Positions 42,663-63,816 of a stretch of 64,000 nucleotides of DNA are shown here, piece after piece (the first letter of the stretch is position 1; the number at the start of each line of letters is the position of its first letter). The stretch is from positions 1-64,000 of IMG/VR virus record IMGVR_UViG_3300025073_000036. The stretch is one strand, 5' to 3'. Source of the stretch: a virus. The notes beneath the pieces are model-generated. The model made no database searches, was not told the origin of the DNA, and saw nothing but the letters and a program-made list of their open reading frames with translations. Both the position numbers and the translations under genes were made by a program.

Positions 42663-43348
42663 AGGCCGTGCTCGTGGCAGGTCGAGTCGTGGCAGGTGTC
42701 CGACACGTCGCCGCAGATGTCGCACCACTTCATTGTCCCGTGGCATTGCCCATCGCCCGGGCACGACTCGGCCAGGCGGGCGGCCTCGCGCTCTTCATCG
42801 GCACGGCGCACAACCTGCCGGTGCGAACGCAGGGCCGACTCAATGTTGAGCGCGAGCCAGGACTTGAGCGTGCCCGCAGGCCAGCCGTGCGCGACGCCGA
42901 AGGTCAGATCGGCCCGGGTCTTTCGGTCGGCGGCGGCGGCCAGACGCAGGACGATCCGGCCCTCGACGCTTGGCGTGCCGTCGGCCTCGGGCGGTGCAAG
43001 CTGAAACGGCTCGGCCAACGACCCCAGGATCTCGGCCGTCTCCTGCTCGCCGATCTCATCGGCGTGGGGCGCCTCGACTCCGCACGGACGAACGTCGGAA
43101 TGGGCGAGCTCCATCGTCTGCCACAACCGGCGGGCCACCTCGTCGGCCTTCACCCAGGCGGCATGCAACAGCGGCAAGGCCGGCACCATGATCGACCGGT
43201 CGCTGCGTTCGACGATCCGGCGGGCCTCGTCTTCGGTGTAGAGCCCGGCTGCGGCCACCTCGTCGGTGTAGCCGGACGACTCCGGCCGCCAGTAGCGGCC
43301 CCGGCCCGATTGGTGTTCGGGCAGAACTTCCACGAGAAAGCGCGACAT
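42659..43348 (-). CDS. Protein with C-terminal Cys/His cluster, unknown function
   Basis: This 229-residue protein starts at ATG 43348 (GTG 43351 is the alternative), overlapping the SbcC stop. The middle is helical, and the C-terminus holds a dense zinc-binding cluster (CPGDGQCHGTMKWCDICGDVSDTC, then HDSTCHEH). It may be a DNA- or RNA-binding accessory to the SbcCD complex, suggested only by position. Confidence 0.55.
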   Translation of the reverse strand: MSRFLVEVLPEHQSGRGRYWRPESSGYTDEVAAAGLYTEDEARRIVERSDRSIMVPALPLLHAAWVKADEVARRLWQTMELAHSDVRPCGVEAPHADEIGEQETAEILGSLAEPFQLAPPEADGTPSVEGRIVLRLAAAADRKTRADLTFGVAHGWPAGTLKSWLALNIESALRSHRQVVRRADEEREAARLAESCPGDGQCHGTMKWCDICGDVSDTCHDSTCHEHGL

Positions 43349-46269
43349 CACATGACCTCGAGCGTGGAGCCGTTGACGCCCGGCCGGACTTCGACCCGGT
43401 GCGGCAGGCAGTCGGCCACAGCGTCGATGTGCGTGACCACGAGCACGAGCGGGTAGAGCCGCTGCAGGCCGGTGACGGTGTCCTTGAGCGCGTCGATGCC
43501 GCTCACGTCCAGGGCGCCGAATCCACCTTCATCGATCAGCAGCCATTCGACGGGCACACCTTCACGGTCGGCCAGCAGCCGGGCCAAGCCGAGGCGGAGG
43601 GCGATGTCGATGCGGAATTGCTCGCCGCCCGAGAAGTCCTCGTATTCACGCTCCCCCACGTCGTCGGTGACCACGAAGCGCATGACCTCGCGCTGCCCGC
43701 CGTCGTCGGTCGTGGCCTGGGTCTCGATCCGCAGGCGCATGCCGCGCGTGGAGATCGCCCCGAGCACCCGGTTGGCCTCCAGCTCGAGCACCGGGATCGC
43801 TTTCTCGATCACGAGCGTGGGGGCCAGCGCGCAGGCCTCGGCCGTGCGGTCGAGCTGCCGCGCGGTCTCGGCGTACATGGCGGCCGTCTCCAGCTCGCCC
43901 CGGGCCTGCTCGGCACGGCGGGCCACGTCCTCGAGCACGGCCTCGGCCCTGGCGTGCAGCCGCTCGGCCTCGGTGACCGACTTCTCGGCCGCCTCGCGCG
44001 CCTGGCGGGCCTCGCTGGCGGCCGTCTCGGCCACCATGGCGTTCATGGCCTGCTCGTCCGTGCTGCTGGCGCGCTCGACCTCGGCGGCGCGCTCGGCGCG
44101 CTCGGTGTCCAGCCGGGCGATCTGCCGCTCGATGTCACTGCGCTGGGAGACGGCCAGCTCGGCCGCAGCGCGCTTCCCCGCCGTGGTCTCGCAGCTCGTC
44201 ACGGCCGCGCGGGCGGCGGTCACGGCCGCTTCGGCGGCGGCCACGTTGGGCACGCCGAGCTCGTCGATCTTGCCGCGCACGCTGGCACCCTCGCGGGCGA
44301 GGCGCGCCACCTCGTCGGCCTCGGTGCGGGCACGCTCGGCGGCGCCGCGTTTGGCGTCCACCGTGGCCGAGTCGCGCTCGGCCTGGGCCAGCGCGGTACG
44401 GGCGTTGTCGAGCGCGGTGCGCGCCACGCTCTCGGCGTGCGCGGCGGTGCGCCGGGCGGCGGCGGCGGCGGCCTGCCGCTCGCGCAGCGCGTTGCGAGCG
44501 TTCCCCAGCGCCCGACCGGCGTCGGCGTCCAGTCGGTCGGCCGCGTCGTAGGCCTCGGTCGCCTGTCGGACGGCGGCCTGGGCCGCCTCGTGGGCCGCCT
44601 CGGCCTCGGCCAGCTTCTCGCGCGCTGCGGGCAACCCGTCGCGCGCGGCCACCGCGTCGGCGATGAGGGGGCAGGTGCCGGCCAGGTCACACGACACCTG
44701 CCCGATCATCGGGTCCGTTGACATCCACTGAGGGTGCCGGGCGCACGGCGCCTGGGTCAGTCGAGCGGCCGCTTGGGTCAGCCGCTCGGCGTTGCTCGTC
44801 GCCGTGGCGAGCGCGATGTGCGTTGCGTTGCGGGCGTTGCCGGCCTGGATCTGCGCCTGCTGCGCTTCGGTCAGGGCGGCCCGGGTGGTCGTGGCCGTCG
44901 TCTCGTCCACCTGCTCGGCGCGCGCCGCGTCGTCCGCCACCTCGGCCGTGCGCATCGCCGCGCTGGCGGTGTCGAGCGCGCCCTTGGCCTCGTCCACCTT
45001 GACCCGCAGGCCTTCGATCTGCCCGGCCGCCGCTTCGGCCTGGGTCAGCCCGGCCGCTTCGGCGTCGGCGGCCTTCTGGCGGCCGCTGGCGGCCGTGTAG
45101 AGCTCGACGAGGCGCTTGCGCTCGACCACGAGCGCGTCGAGCTTCCCCTGCGCCTCGCGCACCTGCACAAGGGCCGCCTCGGCCTCGGCCAGCCGCTCAC
45201 GCACGCCGGGCAGATCGGTCTCGGCCTTCGCTGCCGCGTCCAGCTCCGCCGCCGGCCCGGCCAGCTCGTTGAAGCGGGCACGCGCGGCGGTGATCTCGCC
45301 GTCCAGGGCGGAGATCCGCCGCCGTGCCTCGTCCACGTTGCGGGCGGCCGCCTGCGCCGCTTCGAGGGCCTGCTGCGCCGCCGTGTGCGCCGCGTGTGCG
45401 CTCGCCTCGGTGGTCTTGGCGCACGCGAGGCGCACACGGGAGGCCTCGACCACGCCGGAGGCCTCCTGGGCCAGCAGAGCGAAGACCTCCGCCATGCGCG
45501 GCGCCTCGACCGCTCCGCCCGTGTTCTTCAACGTGAAGTAGATCACGTTCCACGCGCCTTCATCGTCGTACCGGGCGAGCTCGTGGCCGTCGGGCGCGCA
45601 GGCCAGGACCGGGCGGTCGACGGGCAGCATGGCCCGCAGGCCGGCCGCGATGGTCGCCGCCCGGGCGTTGGCCTCGTCCCGCTTGGCCGTGGCGTCCCGG
45701 GCGCCGGCCCGGGCGCGGTCGAGCCAGACGCGCCAGCGGCCGAGATCGAGCGAGCGACGCAGGATGTCGCGCCGCTCTTCCGGCTTCGCCCGGGTGAGCC
45801 GGTTGGCGTCGTTCTGCATCATCACCGACGCCGCGAGCAGGGTGTCGTACTCGATGCCCAGGATGCGGCGGATCTCCGCCTGCGTCTCGCGCGCGCCCTT
45901 GCCGCTCATCGGCTCCCAGTGCTCGTCGTGCACGCCGTCGACCGGGCTCGTCTCCAGCACCCATCGGTACAGGTCGAGCTCGCTCTTGGTGCCCGATCCG
46001 CGCACGCTGATCTTGCGCACGATCTTGTAGGTCTCGCCGGTGCTGCTGAACTCCAGCTCGCCCACGCAGTCGGTGGCGCCCTTGCGCACCACGCCGGTGA
46101 TGCGGCTCGACCGGCTCTCGCCGAACGGCACCCACACGATTCCCTCCGCGAGCGAGCTTTTGCCCGCCCCGTTGGGGCCAGTGATCACCGCGCCCGGCAT
46201 GGTCGTGAAGTCGAGATCCACGTCCGCCCAGGCGCGGTAGTTCCGCAACCGAAACCGCTTCAAACGCAT
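43348..46269 (-). CDS. sbcC: SbcC/Rad50-like nuclease ATPase subunit (phage gp46-like)
   Basis: This 973-residue SMC-type ATPase pairs with the SbcD-like nuclease encoded upstream at 48714-50123. The Walker A GPNGAGKSS is at residues 31-39, the ABC signature FSGGEQFRIDIALRLG from about 879, Walker B WLLIDEGG near 910 and the H-loop VVTHID near 945. Long Ala/Glu-rich coiled coils fill the centre. The hook region around 505-535 has CARHP and CDLAGTCP instead of the usual CPxC, so the zinc hook is degenerate. The complex makes 3' ends for recombination. ATG 46269, first gene after promoter 46348-46375. Confidence 0.85.
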   Translation of the reverse strand: MRLKRFRLRNYRAWADVDLDFTTMPGAVITGPNGAGKSSLAEGIVWVPFGESRSSRITGVVRKGATDCVGELEFSSTGETYKIVRKISVRGSGTKSELDLYRWVLETSPVDGVHDEHWEPMSGKGARETQAEIRRILGIEYDTLLAASVMMQNDANRLTRAKPEERRDILRRSLDLGRWRVWLDRARAGARDATAKRDEANARAATIAAGLRAMLPVDRPVLACAPDGHELARYDDEGAWNVIYFTLKNTGGAVEAPRMAEVFALLAQEASGVVEASRVRLACAKTTEASAHAAHTAAQQALEAAQAAARNVDEARRRISALDGEITAARARFNELAGPAAELDAAAKAETDLPGVRERLAEAEAALVQVREAQGKLDALVVERKRLVELYTAASGRQKAADAEAAGLTQAEAAAGQIEGLRVKVDEAKGALDTASAAMRTAEVADDAARAEQVDETTATTTRAALTEAQQAQIQAGNARNATHIALATATSNAERLTQAAARLTQAPCARHPQWMSTDPMIGQVSCDLAGTCPLIADAVAARDGLPAAREKLAEAEAAHEAAQAAVRQATEAYDAADRLDADAGRALGNARNALRERQAAAAAARRTAAHAESVARTALDNARTALAQAERDSATVDAKRGAAERARTEADEVARLAREGASVRGKIDELGVPNVAAAEAAVTAARAAVTSCETTAGKRAAAELAVSQRSDIERQIARLDTERAERAAEVERASSTDEQAMNAMVAETAASEARQAREAAEKSVTEAERLHARAEAVLEDVARRAEQARGELETAAMYAETARQLDRTAEACALAPTLVIEKAIPVLELEANRVLGAISTRGMRLRIETQATTDDGGQREVMRFVVTDDVGEREYEDFSGGEQFRIDIALRLGLARLLADREGVPVEWLLIDEGGFGALDVSGIDALKDTVTGLQRLYPLVLVVTHIDAVADCLPHRVEVRPGVNGSTLEVM

Positions 46270-46294
46270 GTTGGTCCCCCGACCATGAAGTTGT

Positions 46295-46311
46295 GCGCCG
46301 CCGGGCGGCGC
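46295..46311 (-). other. Hairpin in the SbcC leader
   Basis: GCGCCGC / GCGGCGC with a 3-base loop forms a perfect 7-bp stem in the untranslated leader between the promoter at 46348-46375 and the SbcC start. There is no T tract, so it may act as RNA stabiliser or attenuator. A second, weaker 4-bp stem at 46273-46284 holds the GGGGG ribosome site in its loop. Confidence 0.4.
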
Positions 46312-46347
46312 CCGCCTGTAGGGCACCGGACAAGCGGCAGGTGCGAG

Positions 46348-46375
46348 CATTTAGCGCGACGCGCTAAGAAGTCAA
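46348..46375 (-). promoter_or_regulatory. Leftward SbcC-operon promoter with perfect-dyad operator
   Basis: On the minus strand TTGACT (46370-46375) is followed at 16-17 bp by TAAATG/AAATGC. The spacer contains the 17-bp palindrome at 46351-46367, with arms TTAGCGCG and CGCGCTAA around one central base. It belongs to the operator group at 35510-35526, 51763-51779 and 51796-51812. Transcription would start about 70 bases before the SbcC ATG. Confidence 0.55.
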
Positions 46376-46390
46376 CAGGAAAGCGCGCGG

Positions 46391-46837
46391 TCAGTCGGAC
46401 CGCGACGACTCGGCGGTGAGCTCGTGAATGGACACGGTGCGCTCCGAGTGGCCGATGCACTCGTTGTCGTAGGTCTGGACGGACGCGGCCACCCGAATCA
46501 GGCCGCGCGCGAAGTCGATGCCGGACCGTGTCGGACGGTAATTGCCGCGCCCTTCGCGCTCGATCAGCCCCCAGTGCACGAGGAAGGCCAGATCGGTCGA
46601 GGCCTTGGTGGCCTTGGCGCTGCCCTGGACAAAGTCGCGCACCTGGCACCACTGGCCCGGCCGCAGCTCGTGAAGGTCCACGAGCCGCACGAGGTTGATC
46701 GCGATCTCACGGTGCAACTTGCGGGTGTAGATCTGCGTGGTGCGCTGGCAGCAGGGGCAGGTCACGGGCTTGCCACCCTCGAGGGCGACGAAGTGTTCGT
46801 GCGAGGCCTCGGCCAGGGTGCGCGGGGAGCTGGACAT
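46391..46837 (-). CDS. Zinc/winged-helix-like protein
   Basis: This 148-residue protein has a CPCC pair near residue 27 and a domain with winged-helix character from about 75 to 120 (ATKASTDLAFLVHWGLIEREGRGNYRPTRSG, a helix-turn-helix plus wing). It may bind DNA and regulate the early operon. AGGTAACC before the ATG is the ribosome site. Function is not assigned. Confidence 0.55.
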   Translation of the reverse strand: MSSSPRTLAEASHEHFVALEGGKPVTCPCCQRTTQIYTRKLHREIAINLVRLVDLHELRPGQWCQVRDFVQGSAKATKASTDLAFLVHWGLIEREGRGNYRPTRSGIDFARGLIRVAASVQTYDNECIGHSERTVSIHELTAESSRSD

Positions 46838-46840
46838 GGG

Positions 46841-47020
46841 TTACCTCCGGCCTCGCAGGATCTCGCGCACGATGGTCCTGGCGTAGGCCTGATTTTCGCG
46901 GCGCAGGCGCCGGACGGTGGCGGTCAGACACATCAGGTCGAGCCGGTGCTCGAAACACCGCCAGGAGAGCCACACGAGGCCCGCAGCGAGCAGGCCGTGC
47001 ATCACCTCGGCAAGGTTCAC
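46841..47020 (-). CDS. Small single-span membrane protein
   Basis: This 59-residue protein starts at GTG 47020, overlapping the previous stop by 4 bases. A hydrophobic segment (VMHGLLAAGLVWLSWRCF, about 6-23) is followed by a positively charged C-terminus (RRLRRENQAYARTIVREILRGRR), so the tail probably faces the cytoplasm. It could alter the host membrane or tether another protein. Confidence 0.5.
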   Translation of the reverse strand: MNLAEVMHGLLAAGLVWLSWRCFEHRLDLMCLTATVRRLRRENQAYARTIVREILRGRR

Positions 47021-47778
47021 AGATCGTCCGTGTCCAGGCCGGCCGCGTCGGCCAGGTGCTCGACCACGAGGGCCAGATCGGTCGAGTCCACCTCGACCGT
47101 GGGATCGTTGCGGCGCGAGGCACGCAACAGGCGCAGCAGGGCCTCGTGCGTGTCGTCGTCGAGCCGGACGGTGCGTGGGGGCTCGACGGTCACGACCGGA
47201 AGCGGCGCGGTGGTCGGGCGTCGGTCGGGCCGGGCGTCGGCGTAGACGCGGTCGAAGGCCTCGCGGTTGACCGGATCGCCGCCGACCAGCAGCGCAGGGG
47301 GGTAGTGGGCCTCGATGCAGCCGGCGGGGTCGAGGCCGACGAACGCACCGCAGGTGCACCGCAACTTCATGCCCGGCGGGCCGTGGACAACCCGTATCGG
47401 TGCGCCGGAGGCCGGGCAACGTGCTGAATCGCTCCGGGCGGCCGGCGGGCGAGGGGGGCTTCCCGCCGGCCGCCCGTGGGCGAATCCGATCTGTACGAGC
47501 AAGGCCGCCGCTTCGGTGAAGCGGCCGACGTAGGCCGTGTGCGCCCAGCTCCCGAGCGCGCCGCTGTACGTCCACCCCAGGGCCGTCAGGCCGCGCGCGT
47601 GATCCACGCTGCCCGTCCAGTAGTGCAGGCGGTTGCAGGCCGGGCACGGCCGGGCGTCGCAGGGCGGATCGCCGACGTTGTGGCACATGCCGTTGCACTT
47701 CCCCACGTCGCCCAGGAAGAGCACGTCGCAGCCGGAGCACTGCCACAGGTTGCGCACGGTCAGGTCAGGCAGGGCCAT
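47017..47778 (-). CDS. Cys-rich zinc-binding protein, unknown function
   Basis: This 253-residue protein carries a dense N-terminal zinc cluster (CSGCDVLFLGDVGKCNGMC, CDARPCPACNRLHYW) and a second set near 130-145 (RCTCGAFVGLDPAGC). The C-terminus is helical (DTHEALLRLLRASRRN, DLALVVEHLADAAG). Several zinc knuckles in one protein point to nucleic-acid or protein binding. No family is recognised. It overlaps the membrane protein's start. Confidence 0.55.
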   Translation of the reverse strand: MALPDLTVRNLWQCSGCDVLFLGDVGKCNGMCHNVGDPPCDARPCPACNRLHYWTGSVDHARGLTALGWTYSGALGSWAHTAYVGRFTEAAALLVQIGFAHGRPAGSPPRPPAARSDSARCPASGAPIRVVHGPPGMKLRCTCGAFVGLDPAGCIEAHYPPALLVGGDPVNREAFDRVYADARPDRRPTTAPLPVVTVEPPRTVRLDDDTHEALLRLLRASRRNDPTVEVDSTDLALVVEHLADAAGLDTDDL

Positions 47779-48535
47779 CGGGCACCTCCGCCGGGGCCAC
47801 GCGCACGCCGAAGGCGACGATGTCGGCCTCGTCGAGCATCACAGCGATCCCGGTGAACTCACACTGCCACGGGACCGCCCGGGCCGCGCAGGCCCGCACG
47901 AAGGCCTCGGCGTCGGCCAGCTCGCCCCCGTTCTCGCCCTCGTTCTCGTCGCTGCCGAAATCCTCGCTGAAACGCTCGGCCCACCAGTCGAGCAGGTCAC
48001 GAGCTGCGCGCCGGATGTAGTCGTCGTCGATGTCGCGCCGTTCGTAGACGTGGAGCGCGACCGGGCCGGAGACCACGGGGCCGTGCACGTCCTCGAGCGC
48101 GGCCTGTGGGTCATCCCACATGCGTTCGGCATCGTGCGGGCCATACAGCGGCTCCCAGCCCTGCGCGAGGGCCTGGAAGTCGCGCCAGGCCACCGTGCGG
48201 GTGGGCGCCTTGAAGCCGCTGCCACGACAGATCGGGCAGACCTCGTCCTTGTCGTCCGGGCACGGCGTCCAGCAGCAACCGTTCTTGCGCTCCGCCGTCT
48301 CCTGGCGGCCCCAGTCCTTCGGCTCGCCGTGGACCCAGGCGAACTCGTTTGGCTTCACACCCAGCCGGCCACCTGGCGTCAAAACCGACACCGCGCCGTA
48401 GTGATTCATGTAGGCCAGGTGCTCGGCCGGCTCGGCCACCGCAGTCGGCTTGTCCGGGTTCACCAAGCTGGCCAGAAAGGGGAAGTCGGCGGTCACGCGC
48501 TTGACAAGCCTCACGGTGGGGTTGTTGCGCTTCAT
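47765..48535 (-). CDS. Protein with CxxCxGxG motif, unknown function
   Basis: This 256-residue protein starts at ATG 48535, overlapping the previous stop (ATGA). It has CCWTPCPDDKDEVCPICRGSGF at about 88-108, with a DnaJ-type CPICRGSG. Acidic stretches (SEDFGSDENEGENGGELADAEAF) occur near the C-terminus. It may be an accessory protein of the early operon; function is not recognised. Confidence 0.55.
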   Translation of the reverse strand: MKRNNPTVRLVKRVTADFPFLASLVNPDKPTAVAEPAEHLAYMNHYGAVSVLTPGGRLGVKPNEFAWVHGEPKDWGRQETAERKNGCCWTPCPDDKDEVCPICRGSGFKAPTRTVAWRDFQALAQGWEPLYGPHDAERMWDDPQAALEDVHGPVVSGPVALHVYERRDIDDDYIRRAARDLLDWWAERFSEDFGSDENEGENGGELADAEAFVRACAARAVPWQCEFTGIAVMLDEADIVAFGVRVAPAEVPDGPA

Positions 48536-48717
48536 CCCTCGCAACCCATCTGGTAGTGACCGCCGCAGGTGGGCGAGCAGAAGGTCAGTTTACGTCTGCG
48601 GACGTACTTCTTTCGCTTTACCTCGTCGAAGGCCAGGTCGGTGATCGTCGTCGTGTGTGGCGTGGCGATGAGCGCGCCGCACTGCGGACACTTGGCGGGC
48701 TGGTTGAGGGCGCTCAC
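48532..48717 (-). CDS. Tiny zinc-ribbon protein
   Basis: This 61-residue protein starts at GTG 48717 and overlaps the preceding stop (GTGA). It has CPQCGALIATPH and CSPTCGGHYQ separated by 36 residues, a four-Cys zinc ribbon. A basic segment (DEVKRKKYVRRRKL) suggests nucleic-acid binding. The small size and operon place it as an accessory of SbcD. Confidence 0.6.
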   Translation of the reverse strand: MSALNQPAKCPQCGALIATPHTTTITDLAFDEVKRKKYVRRRKLTFCSPTCGGHYQMGCEG

Positions 48718-50123
48718 GCCGCACCGACCTTCCCGGCCGACCCCTGCTCGGCCGCCCAGTTGCGGATGTTGCCACGGATCGCTTCCTCGTCCGGGGCGAG
48801 GTCGGGGCGGGCGCTGAACACGGCGGAGAGCACACCCTCGAAACCGAGCTCGGTCTGCACGTCCTCGACGCGCGCCCGGTCGGCCCGGGCCACCTTGCAG
48901 CCGTTGGTGATCGTCACCCCGCAGGCCTTGAGCTCGCGCACGAGCCCGGCCACGACCTCGTTCTCGGCCTCGGTGATGCCGTCCCGGTCGGGCGAGACCA
49001 CGCGGTAGACCCAGGCCTGGTCGCCCCGCTCCGCCTCGGCCTTGAGCTCGGTCAGGTGGTCGTGCACCTCGTCCGGGTGCAGGGTGACAAAGCGGCGGGC
49101 GCCCGGGTTGGCGTGGAACTGGCAGGCCCACCGTTCGCGCACCGGCCCGCCATCGTCGGCCACGAACTCGCGCGCGAAGGTGCTCACGCCCTTCGGCTGG
49201 CCCTCTTCGCCGAAGTCCATGCGGTCGGGGCTGCCGATGTAGCCGTGGGTGAAGAGCATGCCCCGCCCGTCGTCGGTCTCCGCGTCCTCGACCACGGGCG
49301 AGGCCACGGCCTGCCGCTTGTGCAGGTGGCCCCACACGGCCAAGTCGAAGGCGGGGAAGGTGTCGGTCGAGATCGGAGAGTCGGCGAGCGGCACGGTCTG
49401 GTAATCGTTGTATGCCGCGCTGGCGAGCGTGCCGTGCCCGAAGAGGATGCAGGGCGCCCCGGGCGCGACCTCGCGACAGAGCGGCACGAGCTGCGCGTGC
49501 GCGCCCAGGACGGCGTTGAAGCCGCCGGCCAGCACCGCCGACGTAACAACCACGCTGCCGCTCACCTCCGCCGCCGCCGCCCGGGCCGGGTAGGGCACGG
49601 GGAAGATCCAGGCCTCGACCTCGAGCCCGGCCATCCCGGCCGGGTCGGTGAAGGCCACGGCGGCCAGCCGCCCGTTGACGCCGTCACGCACGAGGGCCTG
49701 GGGCGCGAAGGTGTCGAGCACGACGACCTCGGCCGGCCGGAGGTGTTTCAGCGGCTCGAGCGCGTGCGTCCCGCTCCCGTTCGGGCGGTCGTGATTGCCG
49801 AGCAGGACGAGCACGAGAACGCCCGCGTCGGCCCACGACGCGAACGACTCCTGCACGACGGCCTCGGCGGCCGGCAGCGGGCGCGGATCGGGGTAGACAT
49901 CGCCGGCCACGAGCACGAGGTCGCAGCGGTTGGTGCGGGCGGTCTGGCCGATCCACGCGAGCGTCTGGCGGGCCTGGGCCAGGACGAGCGGCCGGCGGGT
50001 GGCCCGGTCGACCGGCTGGAGGCCGGCGAGGTTCTGTGTGGCGCTGACGTGCAGGTCGGCGCAGGCGAGGATGCGCAGCTCGCGCGCGGCCTCGTCAAAG
50101 TCGGTGTCAATGGTCTCGTTCAT
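48714..50123 (-). CDS. sbcD: SbcD/Mre11-like nuclease subunit (phage gp47-like)
   Basis: This 469-residue metallophosphoesterase nuclease contains all five Mre11 motifs: ACADLH (D23, H25), VAGDVYPDP (D75), LGNHDR (N110, H111), FGHGTL (H230) and WGHLHK (265-268). It would bind two Mn ions and process DNA ends with the SbcC ATPase. The start at ATG 50123 was chosen because GACAAGGGGAACACC lies directly before it. It lies 3 kb upstream of SbcC, with several small zinc proteins between them, an unusual separation. The C-terminal domain (about 340-430) joins the SbcC coiled coil. Confidence 0.85.
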   Translation of the reverse strand: MNETIDTDFDEAARELRILACADLHVSATQNLAGLQPVDRATRRPLVLAQARQTLAWIGQTARTNRCDLVLVAGDVYPDPRPLPAAEAVVQESFASWADAGVLVLVLLGNHDRPNGSGTHALEPLKHLRPAEVVVLDTFAPQALVRDGVNGRLAAVAFTDPAGMAGLEVEAWIFPVPYPARAAAAEVSGSVVVTSAVLAGGFNAVLGAHAQLVPLCREVAPGAPCILFGHGTLASAAYNDYQTVPLADSPISTDTFPAFDLAVWGHLHKRQAVASPVVEDAETDDGRGMLFTHGYIGSPDRMDFGEEGQPKGVSTFAREFVADDGGPVRERWACQFHANPGARRFVTLHPDEVHDHLTELKAEAERGDQAWVYRVVSPDRDGITEAENEVVAGLVRELKACGVTITNGCKVARADRARVEDVQTELGFEGVLSAVFSARPDLAPDEEAIRGNIRNWAAEQGSAGKVGAA

Positions 50124-50244
50124 GGTGTTCCCCTTGTCGAAGTTGGTGCCGGTCTCTCCCCGGCAGTCACGCATGGTTGAGCGGCCGCGTTCCCTGGATC
50201 GCCCTCGGCCTCGCGGCGTCACCGGGCGATGCGTGTCCCGTCGC

Positions 50245-51429
50245 CTACCAGGGGATCGGGTCGTCTTCCACGTCGTCGAGCTTTGACCACAAGCGGCACT
50301 GATGCAGGGGCGAGAGCGCGCGGATCGCCTGCTCGCTCATCGTGCCCGGACCGGGGCCGACCTTGCCCTTGCTGCGAGCGTACTTCACGAGCTCGTCGAC
50401 GCTTGCGCGCGGTGTCGGCTCGCCCGGCGGTGGCCCAGCGGCCCCCGGGTTGCCCGCGTCGTCGTCGGCCCATCCGTCGGCCGGGCCGTCGGCGGGGCCG
50501 AGCCCGTGCTCGTCGTCGTCGTCGATGTGCGTGACCGCCGTGACCGGCACCTCGGCGCCTCGCATGTCCGGTAGCAGGCCCCCGGTCATCATCGACCCGA
50601 TGGCCCGGAAGAGCGCGTCGCCCATGCCCAGCGCCTTGCTGGCGGTCATCAGGGCCACGGCCCGGTTCGTCTCCGGATCGCCGAAGTCACCCGTCCACAC
50701 CAGCCGCCCGGCCACGAACGGCTTGGCCAGCTCTTCGGCGGTGTACTCGTGCCGCAGGCCGAGCACCCGACGGATCAGGCGCGACCACGCTTTCGTCTCG
50801 CAGTGCTCGGCGATGAAGGCGCGCGTGCGGCGGAGCTGTTTCGCGCCCGCTTCGGCCGAGCTGGCGCTCGCCAGCAGCTCGAGCGTGGCGGGCGAGTCGT
50901 CGTTGAGGTCGAGCGAGCGCGTGGCCGCGTAGAGGTGGTCGGCGCCGTCCATGCCGCGCAGCTTCCCGACCGCGCGGCAGCGCACGTACAGCGGATCGTC
51001 GCCCCGGTCGATGCGGGTGCACAGCTCCGGCACGCAAGAGAGCCCGGCCGCGTTGCCGATCCGGTCGAGCAGCGGGCGGAGCATGGAGAACATCGTAGGG
51101 CCGTCGCGCTTCGTGGCCTGGGTGTTCCGGTAGATCTCGCCCGACGTGGGCAGCACGGCCGACATGGCCAGCCGGTAGCCGGCTGGCACGGCGTCCACGG
51201 CCGTGACGGGCAGGATGAGGTTGGTGTGCTCCTGCAGCCACGCCATCGCCTCGCGCAGGCGGGCCGGATCGCCGTGGGCGAGCCGCTGGCCCACCTCGGT
51301 CATCAGCGACGGATCGGTGCGGATGATCTCGGCACGCTGCTGCCCGCCTTCGGGCGGGACGAAGTCGCCGTTGGCCGGTTTCTGCCACGGCCGCCGCTGG
51401 CCCTGCTGGCCCTGCCTCGGTGGTGTCAC
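50245..51429 (-). CDS. Putative single-strand annealing protein (RecT/Rad52-like)
   Basis: This 394-residue protein has features seen in phage annealing proteins: a core with beta strands around AGYRLAMSAVLPTSGEIY, then IAEHCETKAWSRLIRRVLGL, where the ETKA..R..R...GL pattern resembles the conserved helix of this group, and YTAEELAKPFVAGRLV. The C-terminus is acidic and Pro/Gly-rich, which fits an SSB-like partner-binding tail. GACAAGGGGAACAAC precedes the GTG 51429. Neighbouring SbcCD supports a recombination role. The fold is not proven by these motifs; a replication or DNA-binding function remains possible. Confidence 0.45.
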   Translation of the reverse strand: MTPPRQGQQGQRRPWQKPANGDFVPPEGGQQRAEIIRTDPSLMTEVGQRLAHGDPARLREAMAWLQEHTNLILPVTAVDAVPAGYRLAMSAVLPTSGEIYRNTQATKRDGPTMFSMLRPLLDRIGNAAGLSCVPELCTRIDRGDDPLYVRCRAVGKLRGMDGADHLYAATRSLDLNDDSPATLELLASASSAEAGAKQLRRTRAFIAEHCETKAWSRLIRRVLGLRHEYTAEELAKPFVAGRLVWTGDFGDPETNRAVALMTASKALGMGDALFRAIGSMMTGGLLPDMRGAEVPVTAVTHIDDDDEHGLGPADGPADGWADDDAGNPGAAGPPPGEPTPRASVDELVKYARSKGKVGPGPGTMSEQAIRALSPLHQCRLWSKLDDVEDDPIPW

Positions 51430-51480
51430 GTTGTTCCCCTTGTCCTGATGGCCCCCGGGGTGCCGACGGGGGCGTGCTGG

Positions 51481-51729
51481 TCAACTGGCGGCCGACTCCT
51501 GCGCCGGCCGCCGCTTCACCGGGTAGCCCCCGCTGTAGCCCGGCAGATCGTTCAGACTCACGCGCTCGTGGCCGTCCTTGTCGAGGCAGGCCTCGACGAT
51601 GCGAGCGGCCAGGGGCGGGGACGGCATGAGCGTGCCGCAGCAGATGCGGTCGATGTTGCTCTTGGAGCACCCGACCCGCTCGGCGAATGCGCGCCGTTCT
51701 CCGCGCCGCAGGAAATCCTCAAGTCGCAT
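51481..51729 (-). CDS. Cro/YdaS-like DNA-binding regulator
   Basis: This 82-residue protein (start ATG 51729; ATG 51738 is the alternative) begins MRLEDFLRRGERRAFAERVGCSKSNIDRICCGTLMPSPPLAARIVEA. The segment GERRAFAERVGCSKSNIDRICCG is a helix-turn-helix of the Cro/YdaS type, in which S-K-S-N-I-D-R forms the recognition helix. The GGGA ribosome site is eight bases before 51729. It sits beside a divergent pair of promoters carrying two operators, as expected of a repressor that controls its own synthesis. The C-terminal 30 residues are likely for dimerisation. Confidence 0.7.
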   Translation of the reverse strand: MRLEDFLRRGERRAFAERVGCSKSNIDRICCGTLMPSPPLAARIVEACLDKDGHERVSLNDLPGYSGGYPVKRRPAQESAAS

Positions 51730-51758
51730 TGGCGACATCCCGTACAAGTCAAGGCCCA

Positions 51759-51787
51759 ACAATAGGCGCCACACGCCAACAAGGCAA
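51759..51787 (-). promoter_or_regulatory. Leftward early promoter of the regulator gene with operator in spacer
   Basis: On the minus strand TTGCCT (51782-51787) and TATTGT (51759-51764) are exactly 17 bp apart, a good sigma70 promoter. The spacer contains the operator TTGGCGTGTGGCGCC. The layout is the same, base for base in many positions, as that of the promoter at 35506-35534. Transcription would start near 51752, about 23 bases before ATG 51729. Confidence 0.7.
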
Positions 51788-51795
51788 GATGAAAA

Positions 51796-51842
51796 TTAGC
51801 GTGTGAGGCGTATTGACAGCCCGGCGACCCTGAACGTAGCGT
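51796..51842 (+). promoter_or_regulatory. Rightward replication promoter with adjacent operator
   Basis: The operator TTAGCGTGTGAGGCGTA (51796-51812) directly abuts -35 TTGACA (51813-51818), and -10 TAGCGT (51837-51842) is 18 bp downstream. The start of the replication operon is near 51849, 22 bases before GTG 51871. A repressor bound to the operator could block RNA polymerase. The promoter core TTGACA-N18-TAGCGTCG also occurs at 4548-4579. Confidence 0.65.
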
Positions 51843-51870
51843 CGCCGTAACGTATCGACGGGGGACGTTG

Positions 51871-52845
51871 GTGCACGGTCGCTGGGCGGCTACGCCGCTG
51901 CTCTTCTCCACATTGCGAATCGAGGCCTATCCCGACGGCACGCCGTTCAAGGGCCTGCACAAGATCGTCTTGGCGGTGCTGCTCGAGCGGTGTGACGCCG
52001 CAGACGGCAAGGACGGCCGTGGGCGGGTGCGCAACCGCGCCCTGGCCGAGGCCTCGACCGCCGCCGCCCTGGCCGAGGCGCACGCCCGTGGCGGCTCGCT
52101 CGTGAGCGTTGTCGAGCTGGCCCGGCAGGCCGTCGTGGCCGAGAAGGTGGCGCGCGAAGCGGTGCAAGCCTTCAAGGGCGCCGGGTGGGTTCAGGCGTTC
52201 GGACGGCCCGGGCGCCGTGACCTGCTCGTGGTGAACGACTCCGCCCTGCTGGCCGCCGATCCGCGTCTAGGGGTGGCAGATTTGCCAGGGGTGGCAGATT
52301 TGCCAGGGGTGGCAAAAGAGGAAGGCCCGGCAGATCTGCCACCACACCCCTTGCAGATCTGCCACCCCACCCCTGCCGTATTTGCCACCCCCCTCAACGA
52401 TCATGACGCGCGCGCGGCTGTCCCTACCCGGCCCTATCCGACCCTAAACGCACCCCCAGTGGCCCCCGGGCCTGATGAGGCGGAGGTCGCCAGGAAGGCG
52501 GCCGCCTTCCGGCGCTTGTCGGCCGCCTGGGGGGACGGATTCGGGCGGGCTCGACGTGGCCGGGGCGTGATGGAAGTGAACGGTGCCGAGACGGAGACGT
52601 TGCGGCGCCTTGTTGATGCGTATGCCGAGGCGGAAGTTGCGGAGGCGATTCGCCGGGAGATTCTTCGGGCTGCGAATGATCCGCGCGGCCCGCGTCTGGA
52701 CTGGGTCGAGGACGCCTTGCGGGGCGCCCGGCCGAACACCAACCCGCCCGGAGCGGCCAGGCCACCAGCCAGGACCCGCGCGGGCGCCGTTCCCGGGGCG
52801 TCGAAATGGGCGCGTCCGGATGCACGAGGGGAGAAGCCAGGATGA
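51871..52845 (+). CDS. Replication initiator (lambda O/DnaD-like) containing internal iterons
   Basis: This 324-residue protein is the first gene of the rightward replication operon. Residues 1-130 form an HTH/winged-helix domain (FKGLHKIVLAVLLERCDAADGKDGRGRVRNRALAEAS, VVAEKVAREAVQAFKGAGWVQAF) as in initiators that bind the origin. A short linker follows (residues 132-178) that is encoded by five to six iteron-like repeats. The C-terminal part (AEVARKAAAFRRLSAAWG..., DAYAEAEVAEAIRREIL) is a DnaB/DnaC-interaction-type helical region. GTG 51871 was chosen for its GGGGGA ribosome site. It is followed by a DnaC-like loader, as in lambda O and P. Confidence 0.65.
   Translation: MHGRWAATPLLFSTLRIEAYPDGTPFKGLHKIVLAVLLERCDAADGKDGRGRVRNRALAEASTAAALAEAHARGGSLVSVVELARQAVVAEKVAREAVQAFKGAGWVQAFGRPGRRDLLVVNDSALLAADPRLGVADLPGVADLPGVAKEEGPADLPPHPLQICHPTPAVFATPLNDHDARAAVPTRPYPTLNAPPVAPGPDEAEVARKAAAFRRLSAAWGDGFGRARRGRGVMEVNGAETETLRRLVDAYAEAEVAEAIRREILRAANDPRGPRLDWVEDALRGARPNTNPPGAARPPARTRAGAVPGASKWARPDARGEKPG
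52270..52393. repeat. Iteron cluster inside the initiator gene, candidate replication origin
   Basis: Two exact tandem 18-bp units GGGGTGGCAGATTTGCCA (52270-52287 and 52288-52305) and a partial GGGGTGGCA (52306-52314) are followed by palindromic copies GGCAGATCTGCCA (from 52329), GCAGATCTGCCACCCC (from 52353) and TGCCGTATTTGCCACCCC (from 52374). The core TGGCA-N4-TGCCA occurs five times plus one half. Iterons in an initiator gene mark the origin in lambda and related phages. Confidence 0.65.
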
Positions 52846-53735
52846 GCGACGAGACGACGCGGGCACCGTCGGCGCCGAAGGCGGAACCGGAGATGCGCTA
52901 CGCGCGAACCGACGGTTTTGTGACCGCCACGGTCAGCCCGTGTGGCCACTGCCACAAGGGGTCGATCTTCATCGAGGACGAACACGGCAATACGACGGTG
53001 AGGAATTGCCCGAAGTGCGGCCCGCTCCTGATGCAGGCCGCCGCGCTCAACATGGCGCGCCTGCCGGTCGATCCGCCCGGGGCCAACCTGTCGGCCTTCC
53101 AGCTCGACCGCCCGGGTGATCCGCCGAAGATCGGCGGTGGCAACGGCGTGATCCTCGTGCACACCGAGGACGGGAGCATGCCGCACCCGGCGCACTACCG
53201 CGCGGCCGCCCTCGAGGCGGCGGTGGCGTTCTGCAACGCGGCCATCGCTCGCGCGGCCGCCCCGGACGATGGGGGCGGCCTGCTGCTGGCTGGCCCGCCC
53301 GGGACCGGAAAATCGCACCTGTTGCACGGCATCCTGCGTCGGCTGGCCATGCGGGCACCGAAGATCCGGACCCGCTACGCCAGCGCCGGGCAGGTGATGG
53401 CCGACTGCCGGCGCTCTCTCCAGGCGCAGAAGGAAACGCAGAAGCTCGTCGACGACCTCGTGCTCGTCCCGCTGCTGGCCCTCGACGAGCTCGGCAAGGG
53501 CCGCGCGACCGACTGGGAGGTCAGCATCGCCGACGAGATCGTGACGCGCCGCTACGAGGCCGGGAGGGCCACCATCTACGCCACGAACTACTCGCTCGAG
53601 CGCGATCCGCCGGTGGACGATCTCGACGCGCTGGCCAACCGCATCGGGGAGCGCGCGTTCTCTCGCGTGACGCACCGCAACCGCGTGCTCGTGTTGGTCG
53701 GCAGCGACCAGCGATTCGAGGGGAGGGCCGTCTGA
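52842..53735 (+). CDS. DnaC-like helicase loader with zinc ribbon
   Basis: This 297-residue AAA+ ATPase starts at ATG 52842, overlapping the initiator stop, after GGGGAGAAG. Two Cys pairs (CGHC at 34 and CPKC at 56) form a zinc ribbon. Walker A GPPGTGKS is at 151-158, Walker B LLALDELG at 211-218, sensor-1 ATNY at 247-250 and the arginine-finger region RIGERAFSRV at 267-276. It would deliver the host DnaB helicase to the origin. The preceding initiator and iterons give the lambda O-P layout. Confidence 0.85.
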   Translation: MSDETTRAPSAPKAEPEMRYARTDGFVTATVSPCGHCHKGSIFIEDEHGNTTVRNCPKCGPLLMQAAALNMARLPVDPPGANLSAFQLDRPGDPPKIGGGNGVILVHTEDGSMPHPAHYRAAALEAAVAFCNAAIARAAAPDDGGGLLLAGPPGTGKSHLLHGILRRLAMRAPKIRTRYASAGQVMADCRRSLQAQKETQKLVDDLVLVPLLALDELGKGRATDWEVSIADEIVTRRYEAGRATIYATNYSLERDPPVDDLDALANRIGERAFSRVTHRNRVLVLVGSDQRFEGRAV

Positions 53736-63574: not shown

Positions 63575-63816
63575 GCGCGCAGCGCCTACGAGTGCGCGAC
63601 CGAGTGCGACGAGAGCAGGCCCGGAGCGGCCTGAAGGGCTACTCCGGCGAGACCCTGTTGACGGTCGTACAACTGTACGATATTCCGACTGGGCCAGATG
63701 CACCCGAAACGCACCCGAAACGCACCCGTTCGCACCTGTTTTGCACCCGACGTGCGCTCGCAGGTGGTCGGCCGAGTGCGCCCGGGGCGCATGAGACAAG
63801 GGGTTTGCGAACGTGA
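63571..63816 (+). CDS. Short open frame spanning the regulatory region before the small terminase gene
   Basis: This 81-residue frame starts at ATG 63571, overlapping the preceding stop (ATGA). The first 35 residues are basic and helical (LRVRDRVRREQARSGLKGYSGETLLTVVQLYD). The second half is encoded by the promoter, dyad and phased repeats at 63658-63753, giving a low-complexity sequence (PETHPKRTRSHLFCTRRALAGG). Perhaps only the first half is under protein selection. Functional status is uncertain. Confidence 0.4.
   Translation: MSAQRLRVRDRVRREQARSGLKGYSGETLLTVVQLYDIPTGPDAPETHPKRTRSHLFCTRRALAGGRPSAPGAHETRGLRT
63658..63686 (+). promoter_or_regulatory. Promoter with perfect dyad operator before the small terminase gene
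   Basis: TTGACG (63658-63663) and TATTCC (63681-63686) are 17 bp apart. The spacer contains the perfect 16-bp inverted repeat TCGTACA-AC-TGTACGA (63665-63680). A protein bound here would block RNA polymerase. The promoter would feed the small terminase and, past the window edge, the late structural operon. An alternative reading is a nicking site of a packaging region. Confidence 0.6.
63700..63753. repeat. Five phased 10-11 bp repeats before the small terminase gene
   Basis: GCACCCGAAAC (63700-63710), GCACCCGAAAC (63711-63721), GCACCCGTTC (63722-63731), GCACCTGTTTT (63732-63742) and GCACCCGACGT (63743-63753) follow head to tail at one helical turn. This is a typical array of binding sites on one face of DNA. 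With the dyad at 63665 it may be the pac or cos site bound by the small terminase, or an operator cluster for the promoter upstream. Confidence 0.6.

Follow-up and report, generated by a model that had tools for sequence, protein, structure and literature searches.

A candidate replication origin within the presumed initiator gene of a tailed phage

The window analysed here (the whole stretch of 64,000 bases, 1-64000 of the 94,886-base virus record IMGVR_UViG_3300025073_000036) contains, at positions 52270-52391, an array of six iterons that is likely to be a replication origin located within the gene for the phage's own initiator, as is the case of lambda O and SPP1 gp38. The first-pass annotation had proposed a candidate in-gene origin at this site, and the prediction gains support, being favoured because the array is constrained at the DNA level, a helicase-loader gene lies next to it, a homologous module (G010) has an array at the same place, and a further locus (L027) shows the same layout. 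The window genes include members of the terminase, portal, major head protein and baseplate families, which identify the source as a tailed phage whose tail is probably contractile.

The repeat array

The array consists of six copies of a directional unit, three on the plus strand followed by three on the minus strand; the constant part of the unit is GGGGTGGCARAT, and the right arm, TGCCA, is weaker and degenerate. Iteron 1 (52270-52287, plus strand) is a perfect 18-mer, GGGGTGGCAGATTTGCCA, followed head-to-tail by iteron 2 (52288-52305, plus), which has the same sequence, and by iteron 3 (52306-52323, plus), a partial copy in which the left part GGGGTGGCA alone is kept; the two perfect tandem 18-mers and the partial third reported in the first-pass annotation are therefore borne out. 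The three further relatives that it listed also exist, namely iterons 4 (52328-52345, GTGGTGGCAGATCTGCCG), 5 (52351-52368, GGGGTGGCAGATCTGCAA) and 6 (52374-52391, GGGGTGGCAAATACGGCA), all on the minus strand; however, they are inverted directional copies, whose cores show 1, 1 and 2 mismatches when read on their own strand, and they are poor as the TGGCA-N4-TGCCA palindromes that had been described.

The repeats are confirmed as genuine. Allowing up to three mismatches, GGGGTGGCARATNTGCCA has six matches in the window versus 0.32 expected; one of them, at 52324-52341 on the plus strand, is the near-palindromic copy at 52328 read from the opposite strand, and iteron 3, the partial copy at 52306, falls outside the six. 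No iteron match with up to two mismatches occurs elsewhere in the 94,886-base record, in which the array is the strongest local inverted-repeat cluster and ranks fifth for direct repeats. Among viral contigs, the exact iteron pattern was found in seven, with one exact match each, all lone sites or palindromes and none an array, and the two-site pattern in none. A Hymenobacter locus matching the two-site pattern sits in an unrelated ORF and was discarded as a chance match, as was the sole blastn match of the array in phages (28 bases, E 6).

Other repeats are present in the record. The other strong direct-repeat clusters were attributed to low-complexity coding sequence (19.36 and 23.65 kb), to the duplication of an 87-bp unit near a transposase-like ORF (90.2 kb) and to a run of 27 G (93.0-93.2 kb). 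The duplication comprises 2.1 copies of the 87-bp unit, 98% alike, just 5′ of the transposase-like ORF (L014:8213-8396, record 90213-90396). The G run lies outside the window, inside a methyltransferase/helicase-like ORF (L014:11173-11199, record 93173-93199), and reflects either phase variation or an artefact of assembly. Intergenic direct repeats with the unit GCACCCGAAAC, spaced by about one helical turn, are located at 63700-63750.

The presumed initiator gene and its surroundings

The array is contained in ORF1 (51868-52845, plus strand; 325 aa), listed with a TTG start and with a GTG at 51871 as the alternative. ORF1 is probably the replication initiator; its status as a replication gene, within which the iterons are clustered, derives from its position before the loader gene and from the G010 module. 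Curated family libraries gave nothing above their curated cut-offs for ORF1, and a match of residues 68-115 to a GntR winged helix is below significance (E 0.31). The Phage_rep_O profile is absent from ORF1, although the same library does find it in L027; hhalign and BLAST comparisons with other initiators revealed no similarity, and the AlphaFold models (mean pLDDT of 40 for ORF1 and 50 for its N-terminal part) were too poor for a fold search. The ORF1 family has no name in the libraries searched. Searches by tblastn gave no close relatives of ORF1 or DnaC in phages and none of ORF1 in plasmids; scans of viral contigs with ORF1, DnaC and the 50245 protein, and of genome contigs with ORF1, detected no close relatives.

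The gene directly downstream (52842-53735, plus strand) codes for a DnaC-like helicase loader (phrog_50, E 3.7e-32; IstB_IS21, E 3.1e-7); its ATG overlaps the ORF1 stop codon by four bases (ATGA), and its translation contains the Walker A motif AGPPGTGKS, so that both profile and motif place it in PHROG 50. The earlier statement that the repeats lie inside the first replication gene, with a loader gene next, thus agrees with the identity of the downstream gene, and the initiator role of ORF1 is presumed. Divergently upstream of ORF1 are a phrog_13782 gene and a gene for a small HTH protein resembling Cro or a repressor (51481-51774, minus strand; HTH_31, E 7e-6, just below the cut-off). At 43348-50222 the window also includes SbcC-like and SbcD-like genes; palindromic DNA is the substrate of both families, and the presumed origin of this phage is a large imperfect inverted repeat.

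No AT-rich tract was found adjoining the array, which ranks in the least stable 1.4% of 60-base windows; nearby, stability is lowest in the upstream intergenic region. A G-poor, C-rich tract at 52358-52457 overlaps the end of the array and has a GC skew of -0.50; no 100-base window in the record has a lower value. It may be speculated that this tract, together with the low stability of the array, replaces an AT-rich element in melting. GC skew had been suggested as a check on the origin, but its cumulative minimum is at 46284, approximately 6 kb from the array, and the skew does not locate the origin. A search for DnaA boxes returned four scattered one-mismatch matches and no cluster.

Constraint at the DNA level

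The constraint on the array acts on the DNA, because the copies occur in mixed frames and in either orientation, codons rare in this phage are used in the forward ones, and ORF1 beats all synonymous shuffles on four repeat measures. The forward iterons share one frame, which gives GVADLP repeats, and the linker peptide GVADLPGVADLPGVA had been correctly attributed to the repeats; each of the three reverse iterons begins in a frame of its own, and the peptides that they encode are different. In twelve other phage genes, the codons used by the forward iterons are rare within their families: 3.6% for GCA, 5.7% for TTG and 2.4% for CCA.

In 1000 synonymous shuffles of ORF1 the repeat score averaged 6.5 and reached at most 27, versus 63 observed. 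ORF1 contains four exact 12-mer sites, compared with at most two and at most one in two kinds of recoding (2000 trials each), obtained by shuffling its own codons or by drawing from phage codon usage; the mean of about 0.2 exact sites per recoding indicates that one site occasionally arises by chance, and we think that copy 5, written in common codons, is a site of this type. When 61 genes selected from the record were compared, ORF1 alone beats all 100 synonymous shuffles on all four measures (direct, inverted, summed and tandem); eleven others do so on at least one.

A homologous module

Terminase relatives were sought, yielding 4 loci and later 22. The first search for ORF1 covered eight records, four terminase relatives and four contigs with a lone iteron-like site, and found it in none (0/8); twelve of the 22 terminase loci were then searched for ORF1 and DnaC (two more, L033 and L040, are in contigs searched earlier), and ORF1 was found in one of these 12 further records, G010 (IMG/VR, 89,587 bases). 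The G010 homologue has 28% identity to ORF1 over 235 columns (BLASTP, E 2e-13) and is followed by DnaC (41%, E 4e-52); the upstream genes are in the same order, with a phrog_13782 gene and a frame resembling the HTH protein. The N- and C-terminal parts of the two ORF1 proteins align, whereas the linker hardly does. In the G010 linker, ACCCGGTGCGAAAACGA, ACCCGGTACGAAAGCGG and CCCCGGTCCAAAAAGAG follow one another head to tail as three tandem 17-bp repeats, read in three frames; their tandem score exceeds that of all 1000 synonymous shuffles, and the simple count of repeat pairs is not significant, being equalled or surpassed in 67 of 500 shuffles.

Thus, the two phages share homologous ORF1 and DnaC, the neighbouring genes and an array in the corresponding linker, but the G010 repeats are direct, 17 bp long, of another sequence and devoid of an inverted half, and the iteron core GGTGGCARAT is absent from G010. 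Between the two, the array has kept its position while its motif and the linker peptide changed, as would be expected for iterons co-evolving with the initiator that binds them. The conservation of the repeats across homologues, which the first-pass annotation had proposed to examine, holds in the one homologue found for the location of the array in the same linker and fails for the nucleotide motif; the adverse case that it had named, a linker retained after loss of the repeats, is not seen in G010, where the linker peptide has changed and an array is present. A more specific proposal, which we regard as rather doubtful, is that ORF1 and its G010 homologue represent an unnamed initiator family in which the origin would be fixed in the linker of the gene and the iterons wholly replaced between relatives (18-bp GGGGTGGCARATNTGCCA versus 17-bp ACCCGGTNCGAAANCG-like); in the window phage, melting would then depend on the convergent array and the G-poor tract flanking it, with no need of an AT-rich element.

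Other genes preceding dnaC

A scan with an alignment of two DnaC proteins retrieved 11 loci, to which L020 of G002 was added, making 12; 11 are assignable, L021 being omitted as it has no clear upstream gene, and L022 and L023, which scored alike, are probably copies of one virus. In the comparison with PHROGs, from which L021, L023 and L030 were left out, seven of nine upstream genes match a replication-initiation family (E <0.001); the L031 gene matches an HTH DNA-binding family and, weakly, an initiator, and the L029 gene had no match. Not every gene that precedes a DnaC-like gene has significant internal repeats: these beat all 100 shuffles in two of the 11 assignable loci (L020 and L026, the signal of the latter being partly simple purine-rich repetition), are suggestive in L025, L027, L022 and L023 (2 to 5 of 100 shuffles), and are not significant in the other five.

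The L027 locus (IMG/VR) has a Phage_rep_O gene upstream (E 9e-11), with two palindromic 29-base in-gene repeats, 90% alike; its loader is related to that of the window (29% identity) and the repeats likewise lie inside the upstream initiator gene, whereas the initiator sequence and the repeat motif are unrelated. In G002, three TGTAACGTTACA-like palindromes are contained in the gene preceding dnaC. In G012, a terminase relative (48%), dnaC is preceded by a ParB-like gene with in-gene repeats (score 49; 0 of 500 shuffles as high), possibly an in-gene origin served by a DNA-binding protein of a different kind. The ParB-like gene (L062:1475-4135) also carries purine/pyrimidine tracts.

Proposed mechanism and alternative explanations

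By analogy with lambda and SPP1, the ORF1 product would bind the six iterons as a complex resembling the lambda O-some, the complex would melt the DNA nearby, and a strand would be passed to the host DnaB helicase via the DnaC-like loader that the adjacent downstream gene encodes; ORF1 would tolerate the DNA repeats in the linker separating its two conserved parts. Points against the origin reading are the unrecognised ORF1, the lack of an adjoining AT-rich tract, the skew minimum about 6 kb away and the single homologue.

The divergent Cro/repressor-like HTH gene, and the imperfect 18-bp dyads that would suit a dimeric repressor, are also compatible with an operator or regulatory site for the early operon, bound by ORF1 or another phage protein and without origin activity; this is unlikely, as the array is about 400 bases inside the ORF rather than at a promoter, a scan limited to the sigma-70 consensus found no promoter-like site at 51400-53000, and six sites together, with none elsewhere in the record, are atypical of operators. 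The array transcript could form a long hairpin controlling transcription or translation of the operon, since the RNA fold of 52255-52405 reaches -78.6 kcal/mol (z -6.45) and stable folds are likewise predicted for the arrays of G002 (z -4.44) and L027 (z -5.24). However, the fold of the G010 array, the nearest homologue, is not unusual (z -0.74), so the hairpin is probably a by-product of the inverted DNA repeats, and such a control is very unlikely.

It is hardly credible that the repeats are merely a repetitive protein linker, generated by slippage or duplication and without a function in the DNA: the tandem 18-base units are in frame and give GVADLP repeats, but the inverted copies are in other frames with other peptides, rare codons are kept, and the observed repeats are never reached by synonymous shuffles. 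The main origin might be elsewhere and the 52.3-kb array auxiliary, as SPP1 has two origins according to the account in PMC6316719, and at 63700-63728 there are 2.6 copies of an 11-bp direct repeat, with two more similar GCACCNG units up to about 63750. No replication gene was recognised beside these 63.7-kb repeats, and the scanned part (62 residues) of the neighbouring 63813 ORF matches no NCBIfam model; a main origin away from the 52.3-kb array is highly improbable. An origin at the 52.3-kb array is the reading preferred here.

Comparison with known in-gene origins

The kind of layout is already known from lambda and SPP1, and it is the initiator family that is unrecognised. The unnamed ORF1 family becomes testable as an initiator, and homologous presumed initiators with different iterons would offer a natural system for the joint change of initiator and origin specificity.

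In SPP1, as described in PMC6316719, the repeats of oriL are within gene 38, which codes for the initiator gp38; a helicase loader, gp39, is also needed, and the phage has an unwinding element rich in AT as well as oriR, a second origin. Repeats inside the initiator gene and a helicase loader are shared with the window, while the AT-rich unwinding element and the second origin of SPP1 were not found in the window phage. The lambda ori, in the accounts of PMC6022878 and PMC7466680, comprises several 18-bp iterons that show hyphenated dyad symmetry and lie midway through gene O, and the helicase-loader gene is next to O. The window is similar in having several 18-bp iterons in the middle of the presumed initiator gene, with the loader gene next. 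Unlike lambda, whose iterons form one direct series and whose helicase loader is P, the window has three iterons facing three inverted ones, a DnaC-like loader and no AT-rich tract, and ORF1 resembles neither Phage_rep_O nor its member in L027. The in-gene layout of lambda and SPP1 would thus be extended to a high-GC phage lineage, whose initiator is not recognised by the libraries used.
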